Assembly (NCBI GenBank): GCA_900314635.1
Contig: OMVY01000013.1
Location: forward strand, 1-47,124
Source: an uncultured Methanobrevibacter sp.
GTDB taxonomy: Archaea > Methanobacteriota > Methanobacteria > Methanobacteriales > Methanobacteriaceae
DNA length: 47,124 nt
Direction: 5' to 3'
The notes beneath the pieces were generated by a model that saw only the letters and a program-made list of their open reading frames with translations, searched no databases and was not told the DNA's origin. The translations under genes and the position numbers were made by a program. Of this stretch, positions 6,499-27,331 are shown piece by piece. How positions within the stretch are numbered: the first letter of the stretch is position 1; every line of letters begins with the position of its first letter.

Positions 6499-7041
6499 CT
6501 AGAACTGCTTGCCTAATTCATAAGCTTCTTTTAATTTGTCTTCCTGCTCTTCTTTGACTATTCCTGCAGGACCTGCGCTTCCAGCATCAACATGGCCGAT
6601 TACATCATATCCCATGAATGTGAATGGAGAGAATTTGGTTAGTTCTATGTAGTCCTTGTAGGTTCCTTCAGGCTGGTTTTCAGTAAAGATAAGAGCTGCC
6701 TTGCCGCTCAAGCTTTTATCTGGGTTCTGGCCGATTGCATAGAAACGGTCAATGATTGTCTTTGCCTGTGCGGTCATCTGTCCATAGTAGATAGGAGTTG
6801 CGAATATCACGCCATCTGCTGCAACCAGTTCGTCGATTATCTTGTTACCATCGTCGCCACGTACGCATTCGCCATGTTCAGCACAGTACATGCATGCCTT
6901 GCATGCTGCGATGTCCTGCTTTTCAAGGTAGTATTTCACTACTTCATGACCGTTTTCCTCTGCGCCTTTAATCATTTCATCCATCAATACGTCACAGTTT
7001 CCGCCAACACGCGGACTTCCTTGTAATGCTATAATTTTCAT
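6499..7041 (-). CDS. iron-sulfur flavoprotein / NADPH-dependent FMN reductase family
   Basis: This 180-residue flavodoxin-fold protein binds FMN through GSPRVGGNCDVLM at the N-terminus. It carries the compact cysteine cluster C-x2-C-x2-C-x5-C (CKACMYCAEHGEC, residues about 46-58) typical of archaeal iron-sulfur flavoproteins, and the ATPIYYGQMTAQAKTIIDRF flavin-contact segment. It probably moves electrons in the cytoplasm, perhaps in oxygen or peroxide defence as known for some Isf proteins. The reading frame stays open for 30 codons upstream, but GGAGG lies just before the ATG at 7041, and the family begins MKI-x-GSPR, so this start is chosen. Confidence 0.85.
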   Translation of the reverse strand: MKIIALQGSPRVGGNCDVLMDEMIKGAEENGHEVVKYYLEKQDIAACKACMYCAEHGECVRGDDGNKIIDELVAADGVIFATPIYYGQMTAQAKTIIDRFYAIGQNPDKSLSGKAALIFTENQPEGTYKDYIELTKFSPFTFMGYDVIGHVDAGSAGPAGIVKEEQEDKLKEAYELGKQF

Positions 7042-11463: not shown

Positions 11464-13179
11464 CTACTCAATAACAACATCCATGAATTCAAAATTATCT
11501 CCATCAAAGAGTCCCTTGTCAGATATTTTAATTGATGGAATAACCAAGAGTGCCATGAATGCCATAGTCATGAATGGTGCTTCTACCTGACAACCAAGTG
11601 ATGATGCCATTTTATGGAGAACTCCCAGTTTATCCGCAATTTCGTACACATCCTCATTAGACATCAGCCCAGCAATCGGAAGTGGCAGTGAATCTGAAAA
11701 GTCCTCGCTGACAACGGCAATTCCTCCTTTATCATCAATAATCTGGTTTACAGCATCCGCCATCATCTGAGAGTTGTAGCCGATGACTATTATATTATGA
11801 GAGTCATGAGCGATTGATGATGCAATTGCTCCTTTTTTAAGACCGAATCCTTTAATGAATGCATTAGCAATAGTGTTTCCACCGTAGCGTTCAACAACTG
11901 CGATCTTCAAAACATCCTGATAAATATCCGGCTGAATGACTCCGTCTTTCACAGACAGCTTTGCAGTAGCTTTCTTAGTTAAAAGTTCGCCATCGAAACA
12001 TTCTATGACATTGACCTCGCATTCATCACCGTCATAATGTATGTCAAAATCTTCAGGAGTCTTTTTGCTTGCTTTGACTGTATTTTTAGTAATCATTTTC
12101 GGAGCATCAAAGAGAACATTTTCACCATCGAATACACATTCACCGCCGACATATGTTTGCAGGATGTTCAAATCATGTATGCTGTCAACAATTATAAAAT
12201 CTGCCTGCGCACCAGGTATGATGGCTCCGCAATTCAGTCTATAATGGTATGAAGGATTGATTGTCACCATGTTGATTGCTTTGAGAAGATCGATTCCCAA
12301 ATCAAATGCCTTCCGGACAGACAAGTTCAAATGGCCCTTGATTAAATCGTTTGGATGCTTGTCATCGCTGACTATGAAATCAAAGAGCGGTGAGTAGATT
12401 CCATTCTCGAATATGTCTCTTAAAAGCATATTGTTGTATTTTGAGAAATCTATGCTCTTAGAACCTTCCTCTATATCAAAAAGGCCCTCCATATTCAATG
12501 CTGATGAGCCGTCACGAACCATGATCTTCATGCCCTTAACCTTTTTTTCAAGAGCTTCAAGAACATTGCTGCACTCATGGTCTGTGCTGATGCCAGTGGC
12601 AAGGTATTTGTCCAAATCTCCCCCTGTAACTAATGGAGCATGACCATCAATCGGTTTTCCATATGCTCTTGCCAGCTCCAGCTTCCTATGAACCTCTTCG
12701 TCGCCGTTGATGACCCCTGGGAAATTCATCATTTCTCCCAATGCAACTATTTCATCTTTTTTAAGCAGATATTTTATGGCATCTGAATCTAAAACCGCAC
12801 CTGAAGTCTCAAAGACAGTAGCAGGCACGCAGGAAGGAGCGGTGAAATAGAAATTGAAAGGAACCTTGCTTGCATTTTCAATCATTGCTTCAACCCCTTC
12901 GATTCCTAAAACATTAGCTATTTCATGAGGATCGCAGACAACGGAGGTAGTTCCGTGACGCACTGCAACTCTTGCAAACTGTGCTGGTGAAACCATGCTG
13001 CTTTCGATATGAATATGAGAATCAATGAATCCAGGCATCATCAATCCAGGAAAATCCACAGAAAATGATTCATTGATTGTTATCGGAGTTACTTCTTTAA
13101 AAATACCGTTTTCTATTGTAATTCTGGCGGGATAAATAGTATTAGCTATTACATCCAATATAAATGCTGTAAATAACAT
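11464..13179 (-). CDS. ade: adenine deaminase
   Basis: This 571-residue amidohydrolase would convert adenine to hypoxanthine and ammonia in purine salvage. Hallmarks are the metal-binding HIHIESSM segment (residues about 55-62), [40 protein letters not shown] cut across the barrel (near residue 200), and a C-terminal domain with [16 protein letters not shown]. Length and motif order match the Ade family. It is followed at 23 bp by the methyltransferase gene. Its first 27 codons and upstream DNA occur again, diverged, at 26824-27261, where they mark the far end of the accessory island. Confidence 0.92.
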
Positions 13180-13562
13180 GTTATTCCTCTTTTAGTAAGA
13201 TATGATAAAAAAATCATAATTACCCATAGTTATATTTAAGTTTAGATAAACTTGTTTATAATATCTACGGTAATTTATTTTTTATTTGTTTGCATAAGCA
13301 TACTTACTAAATCAATCTTTTACACATATTTAAACTAAAAGACAGTAGTTGATAAGAAAAATTAAAAAAAGATATAGCAATTGATAAGAAAAATTAAAAA
13401 AAAGTCCAAGTTAAAAAAAATAATTAATTAATATCAATCATCCTCATCATCGCCGATGAATGGATCAATAGGGCCGATTTTTCTCCAATAACCACAATTC
13501 CAACAACGTCCCTCAATGCTTAAAGGATATCCGCAAATAGGACAATACAACATCATATCACC
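13108..13562. repeat. left copy of the island-flanking direct repeat
   Basis: This segment covers the first 25-27 codons of adenine deaminase, the upstream region and the whole zinc-ribbon gene. It matches 26824-27261 in the same orientation, with scattered substitutions and small indels. The longest run of identity is about 68 bp, just upstream of ade. The match stops abruptly inside codon 28 of ade and at the ribosome binding site of the zinc-ribbon gene. It bounds the accessory island on the left. Confidence 0.85.
13434..13553 (-). CDS. 39-residue zinc-ribbon protein, copy 1
   Basis: The protein has two CxxC knuckles, CPIC at residues 4-7 and CWNC at 17-20, then GYWRKIGPIDPF and an acidic tail. 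It fits a one-zinc ribbon of unknown role. The ATG at 13553 is preferred to the in-frame ATG three bases upstream: it lies five bases after GAGGTG, and the duplicate at 27250 has only this start. The gene precedes ade on the same strand, about 255 bp away. Conservation of the frame between two diverged copies supports translation. Confidence 0.7.
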   Translation of the reverse strand: MLYCPICGYPLSIEGRCWNCGYWRKIGPIDPFIGDDEDD

Positions 13563-13999
13563 TCATTTATTATATAATTTTTGATAATATTAATAAAAAT
13601 TATCATTTAAAAAGTTTTCTGTTTTTAAAAAAAAATTAATGAATTAATTTAGTTACTTTAAAGTAGGTAGTCTGATTTTCCTATACTAACCGTTTTTCCG
13701 TTGGACAATTCGTAAAATAAACTATTTTTTCATCAATTATAAATCTTTTTCATGTTCGTGCATGATGAAACAAATTGAATTTCATATAGTAACCGAAAAA
13801 AACTAACACCACTTAAAATCATATAGTAACCCTAAATAACTAATTATTAAAAAATTTAGCTGATTATGGAAAGGTTATACATATGGATCTCTTCTTTTTT
13901 GCATTATTTTTATTGTTTCCAATTTATCAAAAGTTTATTATGTAGTTTATATAAATAATATAATAAATTATATAATAAAATTATTTGGAAATGATAATT
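13563..13999. other. left island flank, no gene seen
   Basis: The 437 bp to the portal-like pseudogene contain no convincing reading frame on either strand. Three near copies of a motif reading GGTTACTATATGA on the minus strand occur (13678-13691, 13781-13794, 13819-13831), the first reading GGTTAGTATAGGA. They may be binding sites or remnants of the element's end. The portal promoter is annotated separately. Confidence 0.45.
13946..13999 (+). promoter_or_regulatory. shared-type promoter/leader of the portal-like gene
   Basis: TTTATATAAATAATA, a good archaeal TATA box, starts 54 bp before the ATG and is followed by an AT-only leader. The same layout is found at 19225, 26365 and 26705, before the other plus-strand relic genes. 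Confidence 0.5.
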
Positions 14000-15300
14000 A
14001 TGGGATTTGCTTCTTTTATTAAAACAAGGTTATTGAATAATCGTGTTGAGCAGTATAACACTAACGTAGCTATTGGGGTGAGGATGAAAGACAGCCTAGA
14101 ACTGATGGAATCAATACTGGCCTTGACTTGCCTGATGCACTGCCACCAGTAATCAATAAGACAATAGCTAATGCTCGTTATGCTGTTAAACTTGACGGCT
14201 ATACTTCTGGAGTTTTGAAAAACAGAATTGATAAAGCTAATGTTAATATGGTTCTGGTGGATAAGGAAAACAACTTATCTGCTGAACAGAAACTAACTTT
14301 AATCTTGTGAGCAAGGAAAATTGACATCAGCCAGGTTGCTAAAAATATTCTGCAAGGTGGAATGGTTGACGGTGAAGGACTTATTAAACCTATCAAGAGA
14401 TGGGATAAATCTATTGGCAAATACATTAAACCGGTATTCCTTGAAATAGGTGCTCATGGATATGGATTAAAGAAAGAATTCAATGATGATAATGAAGTGC
14501 AGATGTACTTGCATGAGATGCCTAAGGATATTGTAAACGGATCTCCGGAAGAGTTCGATAATTATGTTAGTGTTGAAGAGGGAACATTAACAGTTAAGTA
14601 TGAACCTGATGAGGTCATTAACTTCATGTACAATGAAATCTACTGTGAAGCTCAAAGCATTATCCTAAATTGTCTTGATGATATATACCACAAATGCAAT
14701 TTGGAACGCAACCAAGTGGAACGTATTAATAAGGACAATATCATTGAAGTAAAACCATCACTAGATTCAAACGGCCAACCTATTGTTACAGAACTTTCAG
14801 CTACTGCAAAAGAAAACTTGTATGCAGATTATGGAACAACTGCTGACAGTAATGTAGCTATTGTACCTCCCGGAATTGAATCTAAAATCTTAGGAGGTAA
14901 CAACTACCAGCCAGACTATACTAGACAGACTGAAATCTTCAGGAACAATATCTTAAGGACTTTTGTTACTCCTCAGTCTCAGGCAGGTAATGAAAAATCC
15001 AACCAGAACGTTGCAGAGTACATTAACGATTCGGCCATTACAGGTTTTATTGTTAATGTGGCCAATGACCAGAAATGGGTGTTAAAGTACTGCAATGAAT
15101 TATTAAATAGGCAGTTAGAGTTAATGGGCATTAGTGAAACTTTAGATATTTATTTCAGCTATTCAAGAGATGATGTGTTAAGATACATTATGGAACTTTC
15201 GGCTGAAGGTGACGAAATCTATAAGAATTACCTAAGTAACTTCGAAGATGAACAACCTGTAGGTGAGAGGATTGTAACCGATGCGGGCGTTGAAGTATAA
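14000..15300 (+). pseudogene. decayed phage portal-like protein gene
   Basis: The frame opens at 14000 (MGFASFIKTRLLNNR) and shifts near 14066-14075 into a frame reading YWGEDERQPRTDGINTGLD. It then meets an in-frame TGA at 14308 and continues open to 15300. Pieced together it gives roughly 430 residues. The long middle part, the IKPVFLEIGAHGYG strand and the C-terminal helix with QKWVLKYCNELLNRQLEL look like a tailed-phage portal protein (SPP1 gp6-like group). The next plus-strand gene is capsid-protease-like, the usual phage order. Two disabling lesions make it a pseudogene. The portal call is by appearance; another phage head protein is possible. Confidence 0.55.
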
Positions 15301-15328
15301 TTTAAGAAATGAAATGACCAACGTATTA

Positions 15329-18300
15329 TTAATTATATTTATCTAAGAAAGTTGGTCCATCATTATTTATTTGTGAAAAAGGAAGAATATCTATAGGTGT
15401 TTCCTTTAAATAAATTATGGGTAACTCTTGAGATACAATAAAAAATGAAAAAACTTTATAATCTGTTAAATCATACCCCATTTTATTGCCTAATTTATCT
15501 AGATTATTTTTTATCCAAATATCTCTTCTTTGATGTTTTTTTATCCATTCTTTATTATCGAAAAATTTTTCTATTTCGTGAAAAATCTCACGAGGATTTC
15601 GTGCACCTTCAATATCTTTGCATTCAATTGAAAATAAATGTTTTTCATTGTTATCTAACAATAAAATATCAATATCTCCATATTTTGGATTGGCTTTCAC
15701 TATTTTATCTATCTTTACATTTTGTTTTAAATAAAATTTTTCAGAGGCATCTAAATTATCTTCAAGCCATTTAAAAACTCTTTCATTAAATTCTTTTCCT
15801 TTTATATCTCCCATTTTACCAATAAATGATTTGAATTTTTTTGAAGAATTATCAGTTTTATATAATCCTTTAAAAATTAAATGTAATAAATTTAAACAAG
15901 AATGGAGAGCATTTCTAAAACCATAAATCACAGTTGCATCTTCATCATTTTTAATAATTAATGGTTTTAAATGATAAGATAATGGTCTTCTAAAAACCCA
16001 TGGATTGATATCGTTTTTAGTATAGCCTTCAGGAGGTGTATCCCAATTTTCGCGATGACTAAATGAAAAATTTTCAATGGCTTGTGCTGATTTTTCATAT
16101 TCCCAATCTAACTCTCTTTTCAATATATCTATTAAGTTAGATTTAGAGATAACAACAACATCTTTTTCGTCATCTACAGCTAACTTTATTAGTATAGAAA
16201 TAAAATCAGTATAATCTGTTAAATTAATCCCAAATTCTGATTTGAATGCCTCTTCTTCTTCATCACTTGGGGTTTCTCCACCATCATTATAATGAAAAAT
16301 ATTTATAGAAAGATTATTCATATGTTCTAATGTTCGTTTAGTTCTAAAAGTATCAAAAATATCCTCTAAATTAGTTTCAGTTCCAAAACGGCCAGATTCT
16401 AAAGGAGTAATTTCGAAATCCACATGTTTAGATTTTATATAATCGCTACTAAATGCCCATTCAATATAATTATAGGATAAAGCCATTAACTGGTCAAAGC
16501 TGTCATTCGATATTTTTACTTCACTATTAAATTTTTGTTCAGCAGATAAAAGTTCTATTAAAAACCTTGTTGGCAATCCCATTTTATCTAACTCATGCTC
16601 TTCATAGACAATTTCTTCCAAAATGCCGGAATCTTTATCATAATTATTAAAATAGTATACATTATTAAATGATGATCTGGCAAATAGAATATTTTCATAA
16701 TTTAAAATTAACTTTTGGATAAGGTCATCCCAATCATATTTTGTAATTTCTTTTTTAATACAATCTAAGTAATATCCAACAATTCTATGACTTAGTTCGA
16801 TAGATTGGTCTTTAGTTAACTTCTGATTATAATCATACTCACATTGGACTTTATTAACTAATCCATCCATTGCTGATTGAACATTATGTTCTTGCAATAA
16901 TCTTATTTTATTTTTTACAGGAATATTATTGATATCTTCAGAAGTATAAATTAAAATGTGTTTCTTTAAGTCTGAATGTGATTTTTTATTGATAATTTCA
17001 CGTCTACGTTCTTCTGTTAATGTATTTTCTAAGCTATTTTTTTCTAATAAATTTCCAATTAGTTTTAAAATGTTATCCATTAAAAGCAGATCTGCTTCAT
17101 TATTTTTTTGATTTGCAATAGGTATCAAATATTTACTAATTTTAAAATTAATTTCTACCTCAGATATATTGCTAGAAATAATTAAATTTTCTTTAATGTA
17201 ATTTGTTATTTCAATATTCAAATCTAAATCCTTATCTTCTTCAAGGCTAAATGAAATTAAAATAGACTTGTCATTTAATGGTTTCAAAACTTTATAAAGT
17301 TCGTCACTAAACTGCCAAATCCAAAAACCCATAGCTTTAGCAATGAATGTTTCATTGTCTTTTTCAAATTTAATCCAAATATTTTGATTAAGTAATTTGA
17401 TTAAAAATAAATGAGAGTTTGCAGCATACATAAAATCATTAATTTTATTAACAAAAATCGAAACGTCATTATAAATTTCCAAATGAGGGTCTTTATCTTT
17501 AATTGCTTTTTTTCTTAATTTTTTTGTGTATTCTGATGTTTCTTCAAAAGATAACAATAGTACATCCATTTTTTCATCAGTGACATAAAATGAATGATTT
17601 TTTTCAATATAAAAACTGAATTTATCTAAAAAACTAATCCCCTCAATATTCTTGTTTTCTAATAAAGTTGCAAATTTAAAAAGAGTCAAACTATCATAAT
17701 TGCCCGAATTGATGAGTATTTCAAATTCTTCACAATTGATTATTAATAAGTTGGTGAATTTTGGTATTTCTGTATAATACTGCCGTCCACTTATGCCACT
17801 GAATAAAATTATAAGAATATCATTAATTGATTCATCAGAATACAAATTATTTATAACAAAGTTCATCCTATTTTTTAGAATAGAACCATATTTTAAGTCA
17901 ATTCTTTCACATGGTCCATTTTTACCATAATCCTTTAAATTGTCGTTAACAAGAACACAATAAGCTAACTTATCAGTATCAATTTTAAAAACCTTATCTT
18001 TAAATAAAGTATTTTCCCATTCAGGCAATTCATAATCAAAATCTTCAAAATGTAATTTATTTTTTAAATTAAATAAAATATTAGACCATAAATCTTTCTG
18101 ATAATTTTTTATAAAATTCTCTTTTTCATTAAATTTTAAAAGAGATGATAAAATATCATGTCTAAGAGAAATAGATAATGCTCTAGGAAATATTATATAT
18201 GTGTTTTCAATTTTTATTAAAGGTGATATTAATATCGGATTTTTGTCAGAAAATTCAGAATACATATTCATCTTGAAAAAATCATAGGGAATGTTACTTT

Positions 18301-19087
18301 CTTTTAAATCTTCTATAAATTCCTTTTCAATTGATAGAACACTATTAAATCTGTCATCACCTACTTCAATAATAAAGTCATCAGCTGTATCTTTATTATT
18401 TAAAAAACCCTTAAATTTTATCATTTCGTTATCACTGAGGGCAACACTATTTTTAAGATAATCTAATTCATCAATATCTGGAAAAAATATTTCTTGCCTA
18501 AATCGATTATTAATATCTTCATAACGTCTGTGCCCTGATTTTTTAGCAATGTAATCACTTAAAAATAAAATAAACATTGAAGTTTGATAGAAATGCTCCA
18601 AAAATTCATTAGAAAAACTTGAAGAGTTTAAATGAATACAATTGAGTATTTTTTGTAAAACATAATAGTCAGAAGTAGAAGGCCCATTAAATATCACATG
18701 ATTTTTAAAGAATAATATATTATTTGTAAATAATGTATCTAAAGAATCCTCTAACAGACCTATTGGTCCTTTTGAAGGGAGGTATTTTAAAAATAGTTCA
18801 TTTAAATCGCGTATTGTAATTAGTTTATTTCCACAGTTAGTATTTGAGCATGCTATTTGAGTTGCTATTTCAAGTCGAATATATTGGGACTGATTTTTAG
18901 GACATATTGATAATGCTGCCAAAGTTTTAATTAAATCTTTCTGATTATATTTGGAAAATTCTTTTTTTAATCTTATTAATGCATCATGGGGAAGATTTCT
19001 TAAATAATTGTCTTTTTTAAAGCAACAATTTTTATATTTTTTACCACTACCACAGGGACATGGTTCATTTCTACCAATTTTTTTCAT
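15329..19087 (-). CDS. giant SEC-C protein with C-terminal nuclease-like domain
   Basis: This 1252-residue protein opens with a SEC-C zinc motif, C-x-C-x8-CC at residues 10-22 (EPCPCGSGKKYKNCC). A very long, mostly helical middle has no domain I recognise. Near the C-terminus, GDIDILL...FSIECKD (about residues 1137-1158) forms a D-x(n)-E-x-K pattern typical of PD-(D/E)XK nucleases. The ATG at 19087 has GGTGGAT just upstream; an in-frame GTG at 19096 overlaps that site and is rejected. It is transcribed against the phage relics on both sides and is extremely AT-rich. A defence role is inferred from the nuclease-like motif and the neighbours; it is not demonstrated. Confidence 0.6.
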   Translation of the reverse strand: MKKIGRNEPCPCGSGKKYKNCCFKKDNYLRNLPHDALIRLKKEFSKYNQKDLIKTLAALSICPKNQSQYIRLEIATQIACSNTNCGNKLITIRDLNELFLKYLPSKGPIGLLEDSLDTLFTNNILFFKNHVIFNGPSTSDYYVLQKILNCIHLNSSSFSNEFLEHFYQTSMFILFLSDYIAKKSGHRRYEDINNRFRQEIFFPDIDELDYLKNSVALSDNEMIKFKGFLNNKDTADDFIIEVGDDRFNSVLSIEKEFIEDLKESNIPYDFFKMNMYSEFSDKNPILISPLIKIENTYIIFPRALSISLRHDILSSLLKFNEKENFIKNYQKDLWSNILFNLKNKLHFEDFDYELPEWENTLFKDKVFKIDTDKLAYCVLVNDNLKDYGKNGPCERIDLKYGSILKNRMNFVINNLYSDESINDILIILFSGISGRQYYTEIPKFTNLLIINCEEFEILINSGNYDSLTLFKFATLLENKNIEGISFLDKFSFYIEKNHSFYVTDEKMDVLLLSFEETSEYTKKLRKKAIKDKDPHLEIYNDVSIFVNKINDFMYAANSHLFLIKLLNQNIWIKFEKDNETFIAKAMGFWIWQFSDELYKVLKPLNDKSILISFSLEEDKDLDLNIEITNYIKENLIISSNISEVEINFKISKYLIPIANQKNNEADLLLMDNILKLIGNLLEKNSLENTLTEERRREIINKKSHSDLKKHILIYTSEDINNIPVKNKIRLLQEHNVQSAMDGLVNKVQCEYDYNQKLTKDQSIELSHRIVGYYLDCIKKEITKYDWDDLIQKLILNYENILFARSSFNNVYYFNNYDKDSGILEEIVYEEHELDKMGLPTRFLIELLSAEQKFNSEVKISNDSFDQLMALSYNYIEWAFSSDYIKSKHVDFEITPLESGRFGTETNLEDIFDTFRTKRTLEHMNNLSINIFHYNDGGETPSDEEEEAFKSEFGINLTDYTDFISILIKLAVDDEKDVVVISKSNLIDILKRELDWEYEKSAQAIENFSFSHRENWDTPPEGYTKNDINPWVFRRPLSYHLKPLIIKNDEDATVIYGFRNALHSCLNLLHLIFKGLYKTDNSSKKFKSFIGKMGDIKGKEFNERVFKWLEDNLDASEKFYLKQNVKIDKIVKANPKYGDIDILLLDNNEKHLFSIECKDIEGARNPREIFHEIEKFFDNKEWIKKHQRRDIWIKNNLDKLGNKMGYDLTDYKVFSFFIVSQELPIIYLKETPIDILPFSQINNDGPTFLDKYN

Positions 19088-19224
19088 ATAATCCACCTAA
19101 CGAAAAGATTATTGACATTGCAATTATGTATTAGAATTACAATTAATTAAATTTTTTCAGAGTATTGAAAAATAAGTATTGGATTATGAAATTTTAAGTA
19201 ATGCTTATTTAAATATAATAAAGA

Positions 19225-19282
19225 TTTATATAAAATAAATAATAAAATATATAATAATTAATATAATAAAATGTGATAAATT
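19225..19282 (+). promoter_or_regulatory. shared-type promoter/leader of the capsid-protease-like gene
   Basis: TTTATATAAAATA begins 58 bp before the ATG at 19283, followed by an AT-only leader ending with GTGAT as ribosome binding site. Matches the arrangement before the portal-like gene. Confidence 0.5.
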
Positions 19283-19744
19283 ATGAGGCATGAACTTTTT
19301 GAAGTAGGAACATATGATTATTCCGACTTGGATGATCGCCTGACAAAACCGGTGAACTGGACTGAAGATGATTTAAAACTAATAGCTGAAAACTATCGTG
19401 GAGGAATTCCTTTAACTTCCGAACATGACAATATCTATGTTGGAATCGGAAACAATATTGAATACGAGGAAGGAAAACTATTCATTGAAATTCCAGATGA
19501 ACTGGACATGGAAGGAAAAGGACTGTCACCTAAAGTTGATGTCTTGTTAAAGGATAAAGGAGATTCATTTGGAATTGATACTATGAGTTTAATAGACGTA
19601 GGAGTTACCAAACACCCAAGAAAGATTAGACTGTTGAATTCTGAAATAACTGGTGAAACTGGAAATCCTGAAGTTAGAAAAGGTAGATTATATAGATTGA
19701 CTGATAAAGGTAACGACTTAGTTAAAAATTTAAATGAAATTTAG
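19283..19744 (+). CDS. phage capsid-assembly (prohead) protease-like protein
   Basis: This 153-residue protein reads VGTYDYSDLDDRLTKPVNWT at the N-terminus, then LIAENYRGGIPLTSEHD, GIGNNIEYEEGKLFIEI and GKGLSPKVDV. That order resembles the Mu I-like and prohead-protease proteins that trim phage scaffolds: a proline-rich target strand, a conserved histidine (SEHD), then a serine in GLS. It is shorter than typical proteases and may be a truncated relic or the N-terminal half. It stands alone on the plus strand, with its own promoter, between the SEC-C and type IIG genes. Whether it is still functional is doubtful. Confidence 0.45.
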   Translation: MRHELFEVGTYDYSDLDDRLTKPVNWTEDDLKLIAENYRGGIPLTSEHDNIYVGIGNNIEYEEGKLFIEIPDELDMEGKGLSPKVDVLLKDKGDSFGIDTMSLIDVGVTKHPRKIRLLNSEITGETGNPEVRKGRLYRLTDKGNDLVKNLNEI

Positions 19745-19856: not shown

Positions 19857-22805
19857 ATGAGTGAGTTTGAAAACAGTAAAAAGCAAATTGAAGAACTTGT
19901 TCAAATGTTTAAAACAAATGAACATATTTATACAGCTGCCGAATTTGATGAAGAAAATACTAAATCAAATTTTATTAATAAATTTTTTATTGCATTAGGA
20001 TGGGATGTTAATAATGATTTACATGTCGCCCCACAATATAGGGACGTAGTATTTGAAGATAAGGTTGTCATCAATGGAAAAACCAAAGCTCCAGATTATT
20101 CATTTGGAATTGGTGCAGATAAAAGTTTTTTCGTTGAAGCTAAAGCACCACATGAAAATATAGAAAATAATAAAGAACATGCATTTCAACTAAAAAGATA
20201 TACCTGGAGTGCAAAGTTACCGGTAGGATTATTAACTGATTTTGAAGAATTAGCAATTTACGTGCCAAAAACAACACCTAAAAAAACACACCATCCAAAT
20301 ATCGATAGAATAAAATATTACCATTATTCTGAATATGTTGAAAAGTGGGAAGAGATTTATAATATTTACAGTAGAGATGCAGTATTAAGTGGAAAATTTG
20401 ATAATTATTTTAGTGAAAGAGATACAGACGGAAATAATCCAACTACCACTGTCGATGACGATTTTTTAAAAACAATAGAAAATTGGAGATTAGAACTAGC
20501 CAAAAATATTGCACTACGAAACATGGAATTAACAGTAGATGAATTAAACTTTGCAGTGCAATTAATAATTGACCGTATAATCTTTTTACGAATAGCTGAA
20601 GATAGAGGTATTGAGAAATATGGACAATTAAAAAAATTAACTGAATTAGCTAGAAATGAAAGAGATAAGTATCCTGTTTATGAAGCGTTCATTGAATTAT
20701 GTAGGGATGCTGATGATAAATATAATAGTGGTTTATTCCATTTTAGTGAGGAAAAGGATATCAGTTTAAGTGCAGATACATTAACTCCAAATTTAAAAGT
20801 TGATGATAGTAAATTAAAAAAGATTATTGATGGGCTATATTATCCTGATTGTCCATACGAATTTAGTATGATTTCCACAGAAATTTTAGGAAACATATAC
20901 GAACAATTCCTAGGAAAAGTCATTAGATTAACTGAGGGTCATCAAGCTAAAGTAGAAGATAAACCTTTAGTTAAGAAAGCAGGCGGAGTGTATTACACAC
21001 CTCAATATATTGTTGAATATATTGTTGATAATACTATTGAGAAACTTTTAAACGGAAAAACACCAAATAAGGTTACTAAATTAAAATTTGTTGATCCTGC
21101 TTGTGGTTCAGGAAGTTTTTTATTAGGAATTTATCAAAAATTATTAGATTGGCATCTTGAGTATTATTCTAATCTAGACCAACCGCCTAAAAATGTAATT
21201 TACTCCGGAAAAGATGGTATCCCTAGATTAACAATTCAAGAAAAGAAAAGAATCTTATTAAATAATATTTATGGAGTTGATATTGACTCTCAAGCAGTAG
21301 AAGTGACAAAATTAAGTTTGCTTTTAAAAGTACTTGAGGATGAAAATAAAGATTTACTTGAAGCTCAACAAAAATTAATTAAAGAAAGAGCATTACCTTA
21401 TTTGGGAGATAATATAAAATGTGGAAATAGTTTAATAAGTCCAAATGATTTAGATTTTGGTGAATTATCTTCAGAAGAAATATTTGAAATTAATCCATTT
21501 GATTGGAAAGAGCAATTTTCAGAAATTTTTGAAAATGGCGGATTCGATGCAATTATTGGAAATCCTCCATATGTTAATATTAGTAAAATACCTTCTAATC
21601 AAAAGGAAATTCTTAAATCTAATTATGAATCAGACGGTCGTTTTGATTTATATGTATTATTCATGGAAAAATCTATTAAATTATTAAAACATGGGGGATT
21701 ACATAGTTTCATTGTTCCCGATAAATTATGTAATCAGAAATATGGAACTAATATTAGAAACATGATGTTAAATTTAAATATTGAGAAAATTGTTGATTTA
21801 AGACCTGTAAAAGTATTTAAAGGAGCTTCTGTGAAGAATGTTATATATATTCTTAAAAATAATAATGTGTCACGAAAATTAGAAATTTTTAAACCTTCTG
21901 CTAAAGAAATTAATAATAACATTTTGGAAAGTAATAGTTTTACATTAAAGCAAGAATTTTATAGCAATATCCCTCAATTTATGTTTAGATTAGATTATAA
22001 GGCGAAATATAACTCAATTATTACTAAAATTAATAATAATTCAATTAAACTAAAAGAAATTTGTTATTGTGCATTCGGATTTCAACCAGGTAATTTAGCC
22101 AAGTTCACTTTCAATGTTAATGAAAATCCTGAAAGAAAGAATGAACATCCTGATGAAGTAATTAAGAAATTTATTAGAGGTAGGAACATTAAGCCATATT
22201 ATATTGATTTTTCTGATGACTATGTTTTTTATTTACCTGATAAACTTCATAGACCTGCATTTAGAGAATTATTTGAATATCCAAAAATTGTTATTTCAGA
22301 AATATCTAAAAATATAGAGGCTACTTTAGATGAAAATAAATTTTATGGTAATGAAAAAGTAATTCATGTATTACCTTGGAAATACATGAGTCTTGTTGAT
22401 GAAAAAATTATTAGGAGACGAGGAATACAATTTGATGAAAATAATATTAGTAATTCAGAGGAATATTGTTTGAAATTTATTTTGCCTTTGTTGAATTCAA
22501 AACTAATGCAATTTTATTTTAAAATTACTTTATCTGATGATTTGAATGTTTATCCTGATAATGTAAAAGAACTACCAATTTTAATTGCTGACAATTCTAC
22601 CAAAAAGACTTTCATAAATTATTGTGATAAACTGTTGGCATTAACTGAAAGTTTAGTTAGTTGCAAAACCCCTAATCAAAAAGACATATTTGAAATGCAA
22701 GTTAAAAAAATTAATGATGACATAAATCAATTAATTTATGAATTATATGATTTAAATGATGAAGAAATTGAAATTGTTGAAAATGAAGTGGGGGTAGATA
22801 GTTAA
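19857..22805 (+). CDS. type IIG restriction enzyme / adenine methyltransferase fusion
   Basis: This 982-residue single-chain restriction-modification protein begins with a PD-(D/E)XK endonuclease: APDYSFG at residues 78-84 with D80, then FFVEAKAP with E94 and K96. The N6-adenine methylase follows, with motif I DPACGSGSFLLG near residue 412 and motif IV IIGNPPYVN near residue 569. A C-terminal target-recognition region starts near residue 720, and two helices lie at the end. The layout matches Eco57I/type IIG enzymes, which cut and methylate from one chain. The recognition sequence cannot be read. Three bases separate TTTCCAT-type leader from the ATG with no strong ribosome site. It converges on the C5 methylase gene. 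Confidence 0.87.
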   Translation: MSEFENSKKQIEELVQMFKTNEHIYTAAEFDEENTKSNFINKFFIALGWDVNNDLHVAPQYRDVVFEDKVVINGKTKAPDYSFGIGADKSFFVEAKAPHENIENNKEHAFQLKRYTWSAKLPVGLLTDFEELAIYVPKTTPKKTHHPNIDRIKYYHYSEYVEKWEEIYNIYSRDAVLSGKFDNYFSERDTDGNNPTTTVDDDFLKTIENWRLELAKNIALRNMELTVDELNFAVQLIIDRIIFLRIAEDRGIEKYGQLKKLTELARNERDKYPVYEAFIELCRDADDKYNSGLFHFSEEKDISLSADTLTPNLKVDDSKLKKIIDGLYYPDCPYEFSMISTEILGNIYEQFLGKVIRLTEGHQAKVEDKPLVKKAGGVYYTPQYIVEYIVDNTIEKLLNGKTPNKVTKLKFVDPACGSGSFLLGIYQKLLDWHLEYYSNLDQPPKNVIYSGKDGIPRLTIQEKKRILLNNIYGVDIDSQAVEVTKLSLLLKVLEDENKDLLEAQQKLIKERALPYLGDNIKCGNSLISPNDLDFGELSSEEIFEINPFDWKEQFSEIFENGGFDAIIGNPPYVNISKIPSNQKEILKSNYESDGRFDLYVLFMEKSIKLLKHGGLHSFIVPDKLCNQKYGTNIRNMMLNLNIEKIVDLRPVKVFKGASVKNVIYILKNNNVSRKLEIFKPSAKEINNNILESNSFTLKQEFYSNIPQFMFRLDYKAKYNSIITKINNNSIKLKEICYCAFGFQPGNLAKFTFNVNENPERKNEHPDEVIKKFIRGRNIKPYYIDFSDDYVFYLPDKLHRPAFRELFEYPKIVISEISKNIEATLDENKFYGNEKVIHVLPWKYMSLVDEKIIRRRGIQFDENNISNSEEYCLKFILPLLNSKLMQFYFKITLSDDLNVYPDNVKELPILIADNSTKKTFINYCDKLLALTESLVSCKTPNQKDIFEMQVKKINDDINQLIYELYDLNDEEIEIVENEVGVDS

Positions 22806-22869: not shown

Positions 22870-24063
22870 TTATATTAATCTTGTTTGATAACTTTTTTTA
22901 GTTATTTTTCCATTTAAAGCATCCTTAATATTTTTAGCTATTTTTTGCATGATAATTGGGGGTACGGCTTCTCCAATACACTGGCGAATATTTATTTCAT
23001 TATCTTTAAGAAATTCTTCCTTTTTTTCTATAGGTAATTTATTCAACTCATCTTCATCAATATCTGTCCATTTAAATTCATTTGGAATGTTCATCAATGC
23101 CATTAACTCTCTAATGCTAAAAACTCTATCGTCTGTTGGATGTACAGTATTTTGACTTGATAAAGTATCATTTCTAGTATGGATTGTAAGTGCGACACTG
23201 TCCCATGGTTGTCTATTATACTTTCTAAATTTTTTATCAATATGATGGACAATTTCACCATTAACAATCTTATGGGGCCTTTTTAACGGATCTTCATTAT
23301 CAAATGCAGATTCTCCCTCTTTAATGTCATGTATCCAAGATCGCATTTCAGGCTTATATTTTCTAAACCCATGATAAATATCATTTTCAGAAATTTCCCC
23401 CATTATTTCGAGACTTGGCAAATTTCCGATTACATCTCTTATTGTTTTTTCTTTTTCTTCAGATGGGAATAATAAAGCAGGATCAATTTTTTTTGAAAGA
23501 TCTTTTCTAACACCAATGCATAAACTTCTAGTTCGACTACTATTGGCTCCATAATCTTTAAAGTTTAAAATTCTTTCTTCGTAAATATAATCTTCTGATA
23601 ACCAATCTTTAAACGCATCTCTAATTTTTTTATTTATGTCATGATCAATACATTTAGTATTCATAAATGCTTTAACATTTTCAGATACAAAAAATTTAGG
23701 TTTTATTTTATTAACAATTTCTAAAGCTTCTACGACCAATGAATTCTTTACAATTGTACCATCATTCTTTTTTAGATTTGCAAGACTCATTCCTTGACAA
23801 GGAGGAGTAAAAATAATCACATCTACTTCATCATTGTTTTCTTTTTCATTATATAACTTTATTGCATCAAATAATTGTTGTTTGGTAGTATCTTGGGTTA
23901 TATCACCTAATATGTAACCTTCATCATATTTAATTTTTTCATTATACTTTTGAATATTTAATCTACGTTCAATTAACTCTGAAGTAGCAATTCCTTCAAA
24001 ACCCTCTTGTTTAAAACCAAAGCATCCGACTCCACCTGCACTAAATAAACTAACATAATTCAT
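22870..24063 (-). CDS. C5-cytosine DNA methyltransferase
   Basis: This 397-residue protein has motif I FSAGGVGCFGF at its N-terminus, motif IV FTPPCQGMSLA with catalytic cysteine near residue 89, motif VI-type SENVKAFM, and motif VIII-type NSSRTRSLCIGV. Motifs IX-X lie at the end (RELMALMNIPNEF, CIGEAVPPIIMQKIA). It would methylate cytosines, either paired with a nuclease or as an orphan. The ATG at 24063 follows GTGAT by a few bases, so it is preferred to the in-frame ATG at 24078. The remnant of another C5 methylase lies immediately upstream on the same strand, suggesting replacement or decay of a former pair. Confidence 0.87.
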   Translation of the reverse strand: MNYVSLFSAGGVGCFGFKQEGFEGIATSELIERRLNIQKYNEKIKYDEGYILGDITQDTTKQQLFDAIKLYNEKENNDEVDVIIFTPPCQGMSLANLKKNDGTIVKNSLVVEALEIVNKIKPKFFVSENVKAFMNTKCIDHDINKKIRDAFKDWLSEDYIYEERILNFKDYGANSSRTRSLCIGVRKDLSKKIDPALLFPSEEKEKTIRDVIGNLPSLEIMGEISENDIYHGFRKYKPEMRSWIHDIKEGESAFDNEDPLKRPHKIVNGEIVHHIDKKFRKYNRQPWDSVALTIHTRNDTLSSQNTVHPTDDRVFSIRELMALMNIPNEFKWTDIDEDELNKLPIEKKEEFLKDNEINIRQCIGEAVPPIIMQKIAKNIKDALNGKITKKSYQTRLI

Positions 24064-24148
24064 ATAATCACGATACATAAATAAATAATAAAAAAATTAT
24101 AGATTCCATATTTTTAAAGTTTATCAAATAACTCTGTAGGATTTACTT

Positions 24149-24539: not shown

Positions 24540-24660
24540 GTTAAGCTATTTGAAATTTACTTTCTGAATCTCTTGCATATATATCCCAATTTAAAATCAG
24601 ATTTGATTTTACAAAACCTTGACGTTAAAGTAAAATCCAATTCATTAAATTAAAACAAAT
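24540..24660. repeat. upstream element, copy 1 (before the 40-residue gene)
   Basis: About 105-120 bp match 26140-26272 in the same orientation. The core CTCTTGCATATATATCCCAA and the following TTTAAAATCAGATTTGAT are nearly identical. On the minus strand it ends about 50-70 bp before the 40-residue gene and contains GATATATATG, a plausible TATA box. Substitutions change every possible reading frame, so it is probably not coding. Confidence 0.75.
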
Positions 24661-24771: not shown

Positions 24772-26073
24772 CTACAATGATAATGGTTTTCTTTCATATA
24801 TTCTATTTAAAGTATAATCTATAAATTCCTTATCAAAATTTAATTCATTTAAAATGCATAATTCTATAAGTAATTTTAAATTAAATGAAAGGTCAATAAC
24901 ATTGTAAATGTCTGGATTATCATCTTTACTATAATGGGTATAATAATTTCGAAGACCAACAACATTATCAATGAATTCATCACGATTATCATTTATTATT
25001 TTTTGAGTAATGTTAAAATCACTTAAATATCTAATTAAATCTTTTAAACGTCTTCTAAGAGAAACTTCATTCCCATATTTGATTTTATTTTCCCAACTAT
25101 CCTTTTGGCCGCTGTCCATGATTGAATTTTTAACATATTCATTTAACTCATTTTTAACAATTTCATATTTTTCAGATTCCATAAAATTATCTTTAAAACT
25201 TTCATTTTTTCTCATATAGGCTTCTAATGCTTGAGTGTAAGATAAAAACTGATATTCTATGGTGATGTCACCTGAAAAATTAGTGAAATAAATATCGAAT
25301 AAAGGTTTGTATTTATCATAAATATTAAACCACCTTTCAAAAATATTGCTTTTTGATTCAATAGCTGAAAAATAAAGTAAACTTTTATATCTGCGGAATT
25401 CTGTAGGGGTAAAGTCCAATAATTTAGAATAAATATTAATTTTATTGTGTTTGTGAGGAGAACGTATATTGCAACTAATGGTTCTGAAGTTAGTTGGGTT
25501 ATACATAGCTAATGTTAAAAAATTTCTCAATGATCTTATATTTCTTAAAATTTGATCAAATGGGGTAGGTAGTTCATACTCAAGTTGAATATAATAGTTA
25601 TTTTTAATTGTAATCGAATTGGATTTTATGGATGTTGAATAATCTATAATAAAATTCACATCTCCTTTTCTATAACTAAATGATATTTCGTCTTTTGTTG
25701 GATTTATAATGGGGGTATTATTATCAAAATCAACATTAAATGAATCTTTTTCAATCCATTGTTCTAAATTATGGAATTGTATATTAATATTGTTAAAATT
25801 TAAGTTTGAATCATTGTTATAATTTTCAATTATGTATCTAACTAAAAATGTTTTTTTATAGGGGTCATTAGTTAAAGAGCATTTATATAATGTTAAATCT
25901 TGATTTCCAATTTTGCCGATTATGTTAAAATGTTCTTGTGGGATATTAAAATTTTTTGTCATATCTGTTTTTAAGAGAAATGTATTTGTTTCTTCAGTAA
26001 TTCTCCCACAAAATTTGTTTTCTTCATCATTTTCAAACCAAAATTCGCCTTGTTTATCAATAAAGTATTTCAT
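24772..26073 (-). CDS. ApeA-like HEPN-domain anti-phage protein
   Basis: This 433-residue protein looks like the ApeA family of HEPN ribonucleases, which act in abortive infection against phage. The N-terminal two thirds form a beta-rich ApeA_NTD-like region (IDKQGEFWFEN..., FCGRITEE, and later LEYELPTPFDQILRN). The C-terminal third is helical and holds the HEPN catalytic motif R-x4-H as RNYYTH at residues 375-380. In known ApeA this motif cleaves RNA. The gene is monocistronic and opens downstream of the second upstream element. Its island setting, next to restriction enzymes, supports a defence role. The family call is by motif and layout; activity is inferred. Confidence 0.72.
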   Translation of the reverse strand: MKYFIDKQGEFWFENDEENKFCGRITEETNTFLLKTDMTKNFNIPQEHFNIIGKIGNQDLTLYKCSLTNDPYKKTFLVRYIIENYNNDSNLNFNNINIQFHNLEQWIEKDSFNVDFDNNTPIINPTKDEISFSYRKGDVNFIIDYSTSIKSNSITIKNNYYIQLEYELPTPFDQILRNIRSLRNFLTLAMYNPTNFRTISCNIRSPHKHNKINIYSKLLDFTPTEFRRYKSLLYFSAIESKSNIFERWFNIYDKYKPLFDIYFTNFSGDITIEYQFLSYTQALEAYMRKNESFKDNFMESEKYEIVKNELNEYVKNSIMDSGQKDSWENKIKYGNEVSLRRRLKDLIRYLSDFNITQKIINDNRDEFIDNVVGLRNYYTHYSKDDNPDIYNVIDLSFNLKLLIELCILNELNFDKEFIDYTLNRIYERKPLSL

Positions 26074-26139: not shown

Positions 26140-26272
26140 TTTATGTTAATCTGTTTAAAACCACTTTTTGGAACTCTTGCATATATATCCCAATTTAAAA
26201 TCAGATTTGATTATACCAAACCTTGCCGTTAAAGTAAAATGCAATTCATTAAATTAAACAAAATAAAATTCA
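26140..26272. repeat. upstream element, copy 2 (before the ApeA-like gene)
   Basis: Second copy of the element at 24540-24660. It lies 67-200 bp upstream of the ApeA-like start on the minus strand, with the same TATA-like GATATATATG. The two copies enclose the ApeA-like gene, so either a promoter was copied or a cassette inserted between repeats. Confidence 0.75.
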
Positions 26273-26364
26273 TATCAATTAAATTAATCATATATTAATA
26301 TAAATTATAGTTTTGAATCTATCCACTTTCAAGACAAAATTTGTAGAAATAGGTTAATGATAAA

Positions 26365-26423
26365 TTTATATAATTTAAATAATAAAATATTATATTAATT
26401 ATTATATACAGGTTGTAATAGCT
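26365..26423 (+). promoter_or_regulatory. shared-type promoter/leader of the 65-residue gene
   Basis: TTTATATAATTTAAATAATA starts 59 bp before the ATG at 26424, followed by an AT-only stretch and AGGT as a ribosome binding site. Confidence 0.5.
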
Positions 26424-26621
26424 ATGGCCAATGTTAATAATACCTCATCCTACATGGATGAAGATAAAAAGCAAATTATCAAAGAGTCTAACTATACCTA
26501 TAGAGATGCTCTTGAAGTTTCAGCTTATCTCATTGAAGCAGGAAAGTTCGAAAGGTTCTATAAAGAAATGCAAATAGCTGACTTGCAAAAAGAACTTGAA
26601 GAGATGGGTGACGAAGAATAA
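26424..26621 (+). CDS. 65-residue acidic helical protein, possible phage relic
   Basis: I do not recognise a family. The protein is almost entirely charged and helical (MDEDKKQIIKESNYTYRDAL..., ending QKELEEMGDEE), without signal peptide or cysteines. Its promoter and leader match those of the portal-like and protease-like genes, which suggests the same phage-derived origin; a small head or tail accessory protein is possible. It is intact and has a plausible AGGT ribosome site. Downstream, 138 bp away, begins the truncated gene at the island junction. Confidence 0.5.
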   Translation: MANVNNTSSYMDEDKKQIIKESNYTYRDALEVSAYLIEAGKFERFYKEMQIADLQKELEEMGDEE

Positions 26622-26704
26622 CTTCAAAAAACATATCTCCCGTATAAACTCTTAAAAGAAACTATTTTTGATTTCAAAGGTAATAATAAAAATTATTATT
26701 ACTC

Positions 26705-26759
26705 TTATATTTTTTAAATAATATAATTTTATATATAATACATAATAAATTAATATATT
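26705..26759 (+). promoter_or_regulatory. shared-type promoter/leader of the truncated gene
   Basis: TTATATTTTTTAAATAATATAA starts 55 bp before the ATG at 26760, followed by an AT-only leader without an obvious ribosome binding site. Fourth instance of the arrangement seen at 13946, 19225 and 26365. Confidence 0.4.
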
Positions 26760-26861
26760 ATGATACCAGAAAAAACCAACATCAGCGCAAGAGTGGATTT
26801 AACACTTAAAAAAATAGTAGAAGAAAAAATACCGTTTTCTATTGTAATTCTGGCGGGATAA
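26760..26861 (+). pseudogene. gene truncated at the right island junction
   Basis: The frame begins MIPEKTNISARVDLTLKKIV and then, at 26824, runs into the antisense of the adenine deaminase fragment, ending after ten foreign residues at the TAA 26859-26861. Only about 22 native codons remain, too few to name. It shows that the element's own DNA stops exactly where the copied host segment starts. Confidence 0.6.
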
Positions 26862-26905
26862 ATAGTATTAGCTATTACATCCAATATAAATGCAGTAAAT
26901 AACAT
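26825..26905 (-). pseudogene. 5' fragment of adenine deaminase
   Basis: Codons 1-27 match the N-terminus of the complete ade at 13179 ([20 protein letters not shown] and then TIENGIF). The frame then meets unrelated DNA at 26824 and ends shortly after. The upstream promoter region is retained, so a short transcript into the island could be made. Confidence 0.85.
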
Positions 26906-27130
26906 GTTATTCCTCTTTTAGTAAAATATGATAAAAAATTAATTATTCATAGTTATATTTAAGTTTAGATAAACTTGTTTATAATATCTACGGTAATTTA
27001 TTTTTTATTTGTTTGTATAACCACACTTTCACATATTAAAAAAAAGAAATAATCATTGAGAAAAATTAGAAAAATAATCGCTGATAATAAAAATTAAAAA
27101 AAGTCTAATTAAAAAAATAATTTATTAATA

Positions 27131-27250
27131 TCAATCATCATCCTCATCACCGAGGAATGGATCAATAGGGCCGGTTTTTCTCCAATAACCGCATTTCCAA
27201 CAACGTCCATCCCTGCTTAAAGGATATCCGCAAATAGGACAATACAACAT
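27131..27250 (-). CDS. 39-residue zinc-ribbon protein, copy 2
   Basis: This is a paralogue of the protein at 13434-13553, with the same CPIC and CWKC knuckles and the same GYWRK-GPIDPF core. Differences are RD for IE, K for N, T for I, L for I and a shifted acidic tail. The start lies five bases after AGGTG. Retention of the frame, cysteines and tail in both copies suggests selection or recent duplication. It is the copy adjoining the host gene at 27332. Confidence 0.7.
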   Translation of the reverse strand: MLYCPICGYPLSRDGRCWKCGYWRKTGPIDPFLGDEDDD

Positions 27251-27331
27251 AATATCACCTAAATTAGAAAGAATAGAAAAAGTGTGAAAATTTGAAATAT
27301 TAATTATCAAATTTCCAAAGCAAAAAATTAA

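Follow-up and report, generated by a model that had tools for sequence, protein, structure and literature searches.

What does a 1252-residue protein do whose gene stands by itself, in the opposite orientation to its neighbors, within a genomic island of a methanogenic archaeon? The gene lies in a stretch of 47,124 nucleotides of contig OMVY01000013.1 from an uncultured Methanobrevibacter sp. (assembly GCA_900314635.1), which was analyzed as a whole and is hereafter called the window. A preliminary description of this DNA had proposed a possible single-gene defense system with an N-terminal SEC-C motif, a long helical body and a C-terminal nuclease as the effector. We argue, with a probability of about 0.82, that the gene product is likely an antiviral nuclease that works as a single protein, belongs to an archaeal branch of the Upx superfamily and is equipped with an N-terminal SEC-C finger. 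This reading draws on full-length homology and a fold match, an intact PD-(D/E)XK site, an intact SEC-C motif, purifying selection, the one-gene cassette in a provirus and the presence of the gene in defense islands.

An intact gene under purifying selection

15329..19087, minus strand: SEC-C-Upx-like gene, 1252 amino acids (open reading frame, translation, Upx homology)

The gene is an intact reading frame of 1252 codons, as given by the open reading frame listing and its translation. It begins with an ATG at 19087, for which TTAGGTGGATTATATG provides a good ribosome-binding site, and stops at 15329-15331; an alternative GTG start 3 codons upstream would lengthen the product to 1255 residues. 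When the insert was shuffled at the same base composition (n = 200), the longest open reading frame reached 116 codons. Comparison of the whole protein with homologs of 66 to 72% identity gave dN/dS values of 0.21 to 0.31, and the SEC-C part gave 0.15 to 0.18, a rough figure because the part has only 30 codons. Given the shuffling maximum and the dN/dS values of the whole protein, we consider the gene to encode a real protein under purifying selection. It is present as a single copy in its own genome.

Full-length homology to the antiphage nuclease Upx

Upx is a single-gene defense system that was reportedly named by Gao et al. in 2020. It is listed among the nucleic-acid-degrading systems (PMC10855318), and our literature search found no paper describing a mechanism for it. 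The NCBIfam model NF042954 (Upx_antiphage) matched the window protein with E = 1.5e-40 and 138.3 bits, and the PADLOC Upx model (PDLC02221) with E = 8.3e-36; in the genome scan, the Upx model matched both the N-terminal and the C-terminal parts. Because the score falls below the curated equivalog cutoff of 1900 bits, we call the protein Upx-like rather than a textbook Upx. A genuine Upx encoded on the IMG/VR contig L028 scores 1964.6 bits, above that cutoff, and is a whole-length relative of PDB chain 9wuf (E = 1.7e-260), the Upx structure released in February 2026. The window protein itself matched 9wuf in a sequence search through residues 946-1235 (E = 2.5e-22). Alignment of a profile of five methanogen proteins with the pair of L028 and Bosea proteins (hhalign) extended over 1117 columns, from 41-1234 of the former to 43-1244 of the latter (probability 99.8, E = 4.2e-28). 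This alignment, together with the Upx model matches at both ends, points to common ancestry, and by these sequence comparisons the whole protein is a remote, full-length homolog of Upx.

An AlphaFold model of residues 54-1252, of moderate confidence (pLDDT 66.9, pTM 0.61), retrieved 9wuf ("Cryo-EM structure of Upx") as the first-ranked PDB match in a Foldseek search (E = 2.5e-32, TM 0.54, 1299 columns). The second-ranked match, BstEII, had an E value of 9e-3, and besides 9wuf nothing scored 0.001 or lower; in BFVD, the fold search returned nothing but generic PD-(D/E)XK nucleases (E of at least 8e-3). At this level of model confidence, the overall fold would be the same as that of the solved Upx. 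The body, in which the preliminary description could name no domain, is, according to the profile alignment and the fold match to 9wuf, the Upx body. Contrary to that description, it is not purely helical: the model has a mixed alpha/beta make-up, and residues 360 to 650 contain many strands. A Pfam scan of the window protein found nothing significant besides SEC-C, and direct PADLOC, Pfam and PHROGs scans named no body domain; two candidates, dDENN (0.059) and VHS (0.35), were dismissed as weak chance matches.

The window protein resembles Upx in being the product of a single gene of about 1250 residues, in sharing, according to the model, its fold from one end to the other, and in carrying the same C-terminal GD(I/V)D...ECK nuclease with an H-x-x-R motif. 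It differs in its extra N-terminal SEC-C finger, in its archaeal origin and in its placement in a separate tree clade (100/100). Because the protein is no more than about 15 to 17% identical to Upx over its full length and the score lies far under the equivalog cutoff, the function could have shifted.

An invariant PD-(D/E)XK nuclease core

15434..15841, minus strand: PD-(D/E)XK nuclease core, about residues 1083-1218, alpha-beta-beta-beta-alpha-alpha-beta (AlphaFold model of 942-1252 and Foldseek)
15617..15676, minus strand: catalytic motif D1138-x-D1140 ... E1155-C-K1157 (invariant in 10 homologs from Archaea and Bacteria)
15524..15535, minus strand: H1185-x-x-R1188 motif after the core (invariant in 10 homologs)

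Structure prediction and fold search recovered the nuclease core. An AlphaFold model of the last 311 residues (942-1252; pLDDT 84.6) consists of a helix, three strands, helices and a strand, with D197/D199 and E214/K216 (numbering of this model) falling on, or at, the second and third strands. The model would therewith have the acidic pair and the lysine on adjacent strands that define the core of the PD-(D/E)XK superfamily. Its Foldseek matches were Upx (4e-15), Card1 (1e-4), BstEII (2e-4), Cdn1 and, further down, Shedu.

We aligned ten proteins, from Methanobacteriaceae, Methanotrichaceae, Pyrinomonadaceae and Bacilli, with one true Upx and one viral contig among them (protein numbering equals alignment numbering plus 53 or plus 941). 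G1097, F1100, N1101, G1137, D1138, D1140, E1155, K1157, H1185 and R1188 are invariant in all ten, as is a PW...R..S....P motif around 1029-1042. The D...E-x-K core near the C terminus had been placed exactly in the preliminary description, at positions 1140, 1155 and 1157. In the true Upx of L028, D1138, D1140, E1155 and K1157 are aligned and identical. A point against our reading is that the usual motif I glutamate is not conserved: G1097, F1100 and N1101 are the invariant residues of that region, and an invariant Asn occupies the helix usual for the motif I acid.

According to the fold search, Card1, Cdn1 and Shedu SduA have a PD-(D/E)XK effector nuclease core in common with the window protein, but the match covers the core only (TMq 0.21-0.28). 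The Pfam scan found no CARF ligand-binding domain in the window protein, and Card1 was matched only with the 311-residue C-terminal model. That Card1 and Cdn1 rank so high in the fold search with the nuclease part speaks for abortive infection, a narrower form of the Upx-nuclease reading, in which a viral protein or second messenger would activate a non-specific nuclease and the nucleic acids of cell and virus alike would be destroyed, as in the use that Card1 and Cdn1 make of this fold. However, Pfam recognized no other nucleotide-sensing domain either, and the annotated neighbors include neither cyclase nor type III CRISPR genes. We regard this form as rather unlikely.

The SEC-C finger and the distribution of relatives

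19019..19072, minus strand: SEC-C finger, residues 6-23, CxCGSGxKYKxCC, ligand pattern C10, C12, C21, C22 (Pfam PF02810, E = 1.2e-8)

The N-terminal SEC-C motif of the preliminary description was recovered by Pfam with a match that exceeds the curated cutoff. Its four cysteines are invariant across five aligned methanogen homologs, a conservation from which we predict a metal-binding finger. All full-length Methanobacteriaceae copies carry it (window, L029, L030, L031, L034 and L062, as well as the frameshifted L063), and it is present on a fragment at a contig edge (L008). No SEC-C motif was found near the Upx-like genes of Deinococcus (two), Bosea, Pyrinomonadaceae (two), Methanotrichaceae and Bacilli or near the true Upx of L028, nor was one seen in a short, 750-residue relative (L064); the L027 protein and a Salmonella fragment are N-terminally incomplete and carry no information on this point. 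Among the relatives examined, the predicted finger is therefore found in the Methanobacteriaceae clade only, and it goes beyond what is known of Upx.

In the tree, the six SEC-C proteins form one clade (100/100), and Upx groups with the Salmonella, Bosea and L027 proteins in a separate clade (100/100); because branches are long, the deeper order is unsure. The SEC-C-free proteins of Deinococcus, Pyrinomonadaceae, Methanotrichaceae and Bacilli have the same length and conserved residues as the window protein at 20 to 25% identity and sit on its side of the tree, not with true Upx, but they differ from it in that none has a SEC-C motif near the gene. The simplest reading is that SEC-C was acquired once, before the two methanogen groups (40% identity) diverged.

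Presence of the gene is patchy, with 8 of the 139 genomes of the family carrying it, a count that excludes matches through SEC-C only (L009-L014), which were discarded as homologs. Because SEC-C could draw in false homologs, the wider searches were run without it. Phage records searched by protein (with the window protein and one L032 copy) and viral contigs searched with the window protein and with the C-terminal alignment yielded nothing, and no close counterpart of the Salmonella Upx fragment was present in the E. coli genomes.

Several gene arrangements among the relatives deserve mention in their own right. In Pyrinomonadaceae, two Upx-like genes stand in tandem (L032:8001-15415), the second (11699-15415) directly after the first. 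The 750-residue relative, from another methanogen genus (L064:4926-7178, G011), has a GEIDCL...LEAKD core and adjoins an unknown gene of 401 residues; the pair is perhaps a two-gene relative of Upx. Other Methanobacteriaceae have a family of about 480 residues with an N-terminal SEC-C (L010, L011, L013) that is separate from the Upx-like proteins, and two of its members (L010, L013) adjoin genes that resemble type I restriction R subunits, as judged by eye from the translation.

SEC-C-type fingers are known in SecA, YecA and YchJ, and these proteins have the CxCGSGxKYKxCC-type finger in common with the window protein. The finger of SecA binds SecB (PMC8076867). One could thus imagine a SEC-C chaperone or protein-targeting factor that has a degenerate nuclease and no role in defense. 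We consider this very improbable, since the nuclease residues are all invariant, the gene is patchily present and on mobile elements, and the SEC-C-free relatives share the body and the nuclease. In SecA, the finger is C-terminal (1tf5 and 3iqy match at about 820-840), whereas the window protein has it at the N terminus, in fusion with a nuclease.

A single-gene cassette in a decayed provirus

15304..19213, no strand assigned: inserted cassette holding the SEC-C-Upx-like gene only (flanks contiguous in L049 and L055/G033; insert also in L063/G097)
13930..15303, plus strand: portal-like provirus gene, 5' part frameshifted, left neighbor of the cassette (83 to 85% DNA identity to the portal-like genes of L049 and L055)
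19214..19744, plus strand: next provirus gene, 5' fragment, head protease- or scaffold-like by position (86 to 89% DNA identity to L049/L055)

As had been noted, the gene runs opposite to its neighbors, on the minus strand between provirus remnants on the plus strand. The names "portal" and "protease" rest on position after the terminase (for the portal, also on resemblance) and not on family matches: the portal-like gene (open reading frame 14362-15300, 92% amino acid identity) had no convincing Pfam or PHROGs match, and the fragment at 19214..19744 had no family match. Over their full extent, window positions 13930-15304 and 19214-19653 match provirus stretches that adjoin each other in L049 and L055 (83 to 89% identity). 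In these two, the portal-like gene is followed directly by the next head gene; the empty site, where the flanks join, lies at 6935-6943 of the IMG/VR provirus L049 and at 754-765 of the contig L055/G033, from another species of the genus. In the window, an insert of about 3.9 kb with the reverse-oriented gene separates the portal-like and protease-like genes. The same insert occurs in a different methanogen genus (L063/G097), collinear with the window for 5.3 kb (88.7% identity), with the Upx-like gene frameshifted. There, the terminal 13 bp of the portal gene (GTGTTGAAGTATA) are found on either side of the insert, as would be expected of a target duplication. DNA similarity to the window covers the gene alone in L029, L030 and L062, and the gene and provirus only in L063. 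The gene is a single-gene cassette, and as such a single-gene system, inside a decayed head-tailed provirus.

Direct repeats at 13099-13569 and 26825-27266 (90 to 96% identity in pieces) flank the whole provirus/defense element of about 13.2 kb and hold the first ~27 codons of an adenine deaminase gene with upstream DNA. Because provirus homology stops exactly at 26825, these repeats look like a scar left by integration or recombination. A second provirus fragment (26354-26825; 78 to 89% identity), which lies upstream of the terminase in L049 and L063, closes the element on the right, from which it follows that the provirus remains are rearranged. Synteny of the insertion site by way of the ade and MBL genes was uninformative, since in relatives the two are on different contigs.

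Whom does the gene benefit? It may serve the provirus by acting on competing viruses or satellites, rather than being a host immune gene caught by chance, a possibility that is compatible with the Upx-nuclease reading and to which we give even odds. The precise insertion between two provirus genes, common to L063 and absent from L049 and L055, argues for it. Elsewhere, an Upx-like gene whose N terminus is cut by the contig adjoins Baseplate_J on an IMG/VR contig (L027:1-4912), probably that of a bacterial phage, and the L034 gene follows an XkdF-type phage protease, beside an M78/DUF4411 pair. Archaeal head-tailed proviruses are reported to carry defense genes, and for other archaeal proviruses superinfection exclusion has been proposed (PMC11705971). 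On the other side, the homologs in L029, L030, L062 and L032 lie outside recognizable proviruses, and the window provirus is decayed, so that particular virus is no longer served.

Defense neighbors and mode of action

19857..22805, plus strand: type IIG restriction-methylation enzyme (PADLOC REase_MTase_IIG, E = 3e-184; Eco57I)
22870..24078, minus strand: C5-cytosine DNA methyltransferase (Pfam PF00145)
24772..26073, minus strand: ApeA-type HEPN defense protein (Pfam HEPN_Apea and ApeA_NTD1)

All three genes belong to the same element as the window gene. A 111-nt direct repeat (88%; 24550-24660 and 26154-26264) flanks the ApeA-HEPN gene, and this repeat region had no Rfam match. The L029 gene is surrounded by nSTAND, TIR, FRG and KAP NTPase genes. 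Across the neighborhoods surveyed, copies stand among defense genes or in proviruses, not mainly in non-defense contexts. The proposal of a single-gene defense protein with a nuclease effector gains support from these contexts, from the full-length homology to Upx and from the modeled core; what the preliminary description had missed is that the Upx architecture was already known and that the gene is provirus cargo.

The type IIG enzyme and the C5 methyltransferase in the element bring to mind modification-dependent or sequence-specific restriction, in which the body would read DNA and the nuclease would cut in cis, as in type IV or stand-alone type II enzymes, with no protein trigger. Like abortive infection, this is a narrower form of the Upx-nuclease reading, and we rate it as possible but doubtful. 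It agrees with the fold searches, in which the next-best matches after Upx were the type II restriction enzymes BstEII, FokI, BsoBI, Bse634I and PfoI, and with the deposition of 9wuf under the title "Restriction endonuclease". However, the likeness to type II enzymes is confined to the nuclease core, and the Pfam scan found no known modified-DNA or modified-base reader and no target-recognition domain in the window protein. Because no methyltransferase travels with the homologs in L029, L030, L062 and L063, we do not favor restriction by analogy with the neighboring methyltransferase.

For the Upx-nuclease reading, we suggest that the N-terminal body of about 1000 residues would recognize a feature of the incoming virus, either a form of DNA or a viral protein, and would release or direct the C-terminal nuclease. 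The nuclease would then cut DNA, with the metal held by D1140 and E1155 and with K1157 as the catalytic lysine. Through the SEC-C finger, the protein probably gains a docking surface for a protein or nucleic acid. Restriction-like and triggered abortive action would have similar odds. In its proviral setting, the protein may shield both the lysogenic methanogen and its resident provirus from other viruses, by superinfection exclusion. A bolder and improbable extension would have SEC-C re-wire the methanogen Upx: the nuclease would dock on the machinery of translation or protein handling, or on the viral proteins that it produces, infection would be sensed via viral protein synthesis, and proviruses would spread the variant as superinfection-exclusion cargo at the portal-protease junction.

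The Upx type is known; new are the divergent archaeal branch with its domain gain and its carriage as a provirus insert. These findings extend a poorly understood one-protein defense system from bacteria to methanogenic archaea, a branch that the curated Upx cutoff misses. The SEC-C fusion offers a concrete handle on how Upx finds its trigger, and carriage at the portal-protease junction provides a further archaeal example of a virus that arms its host.
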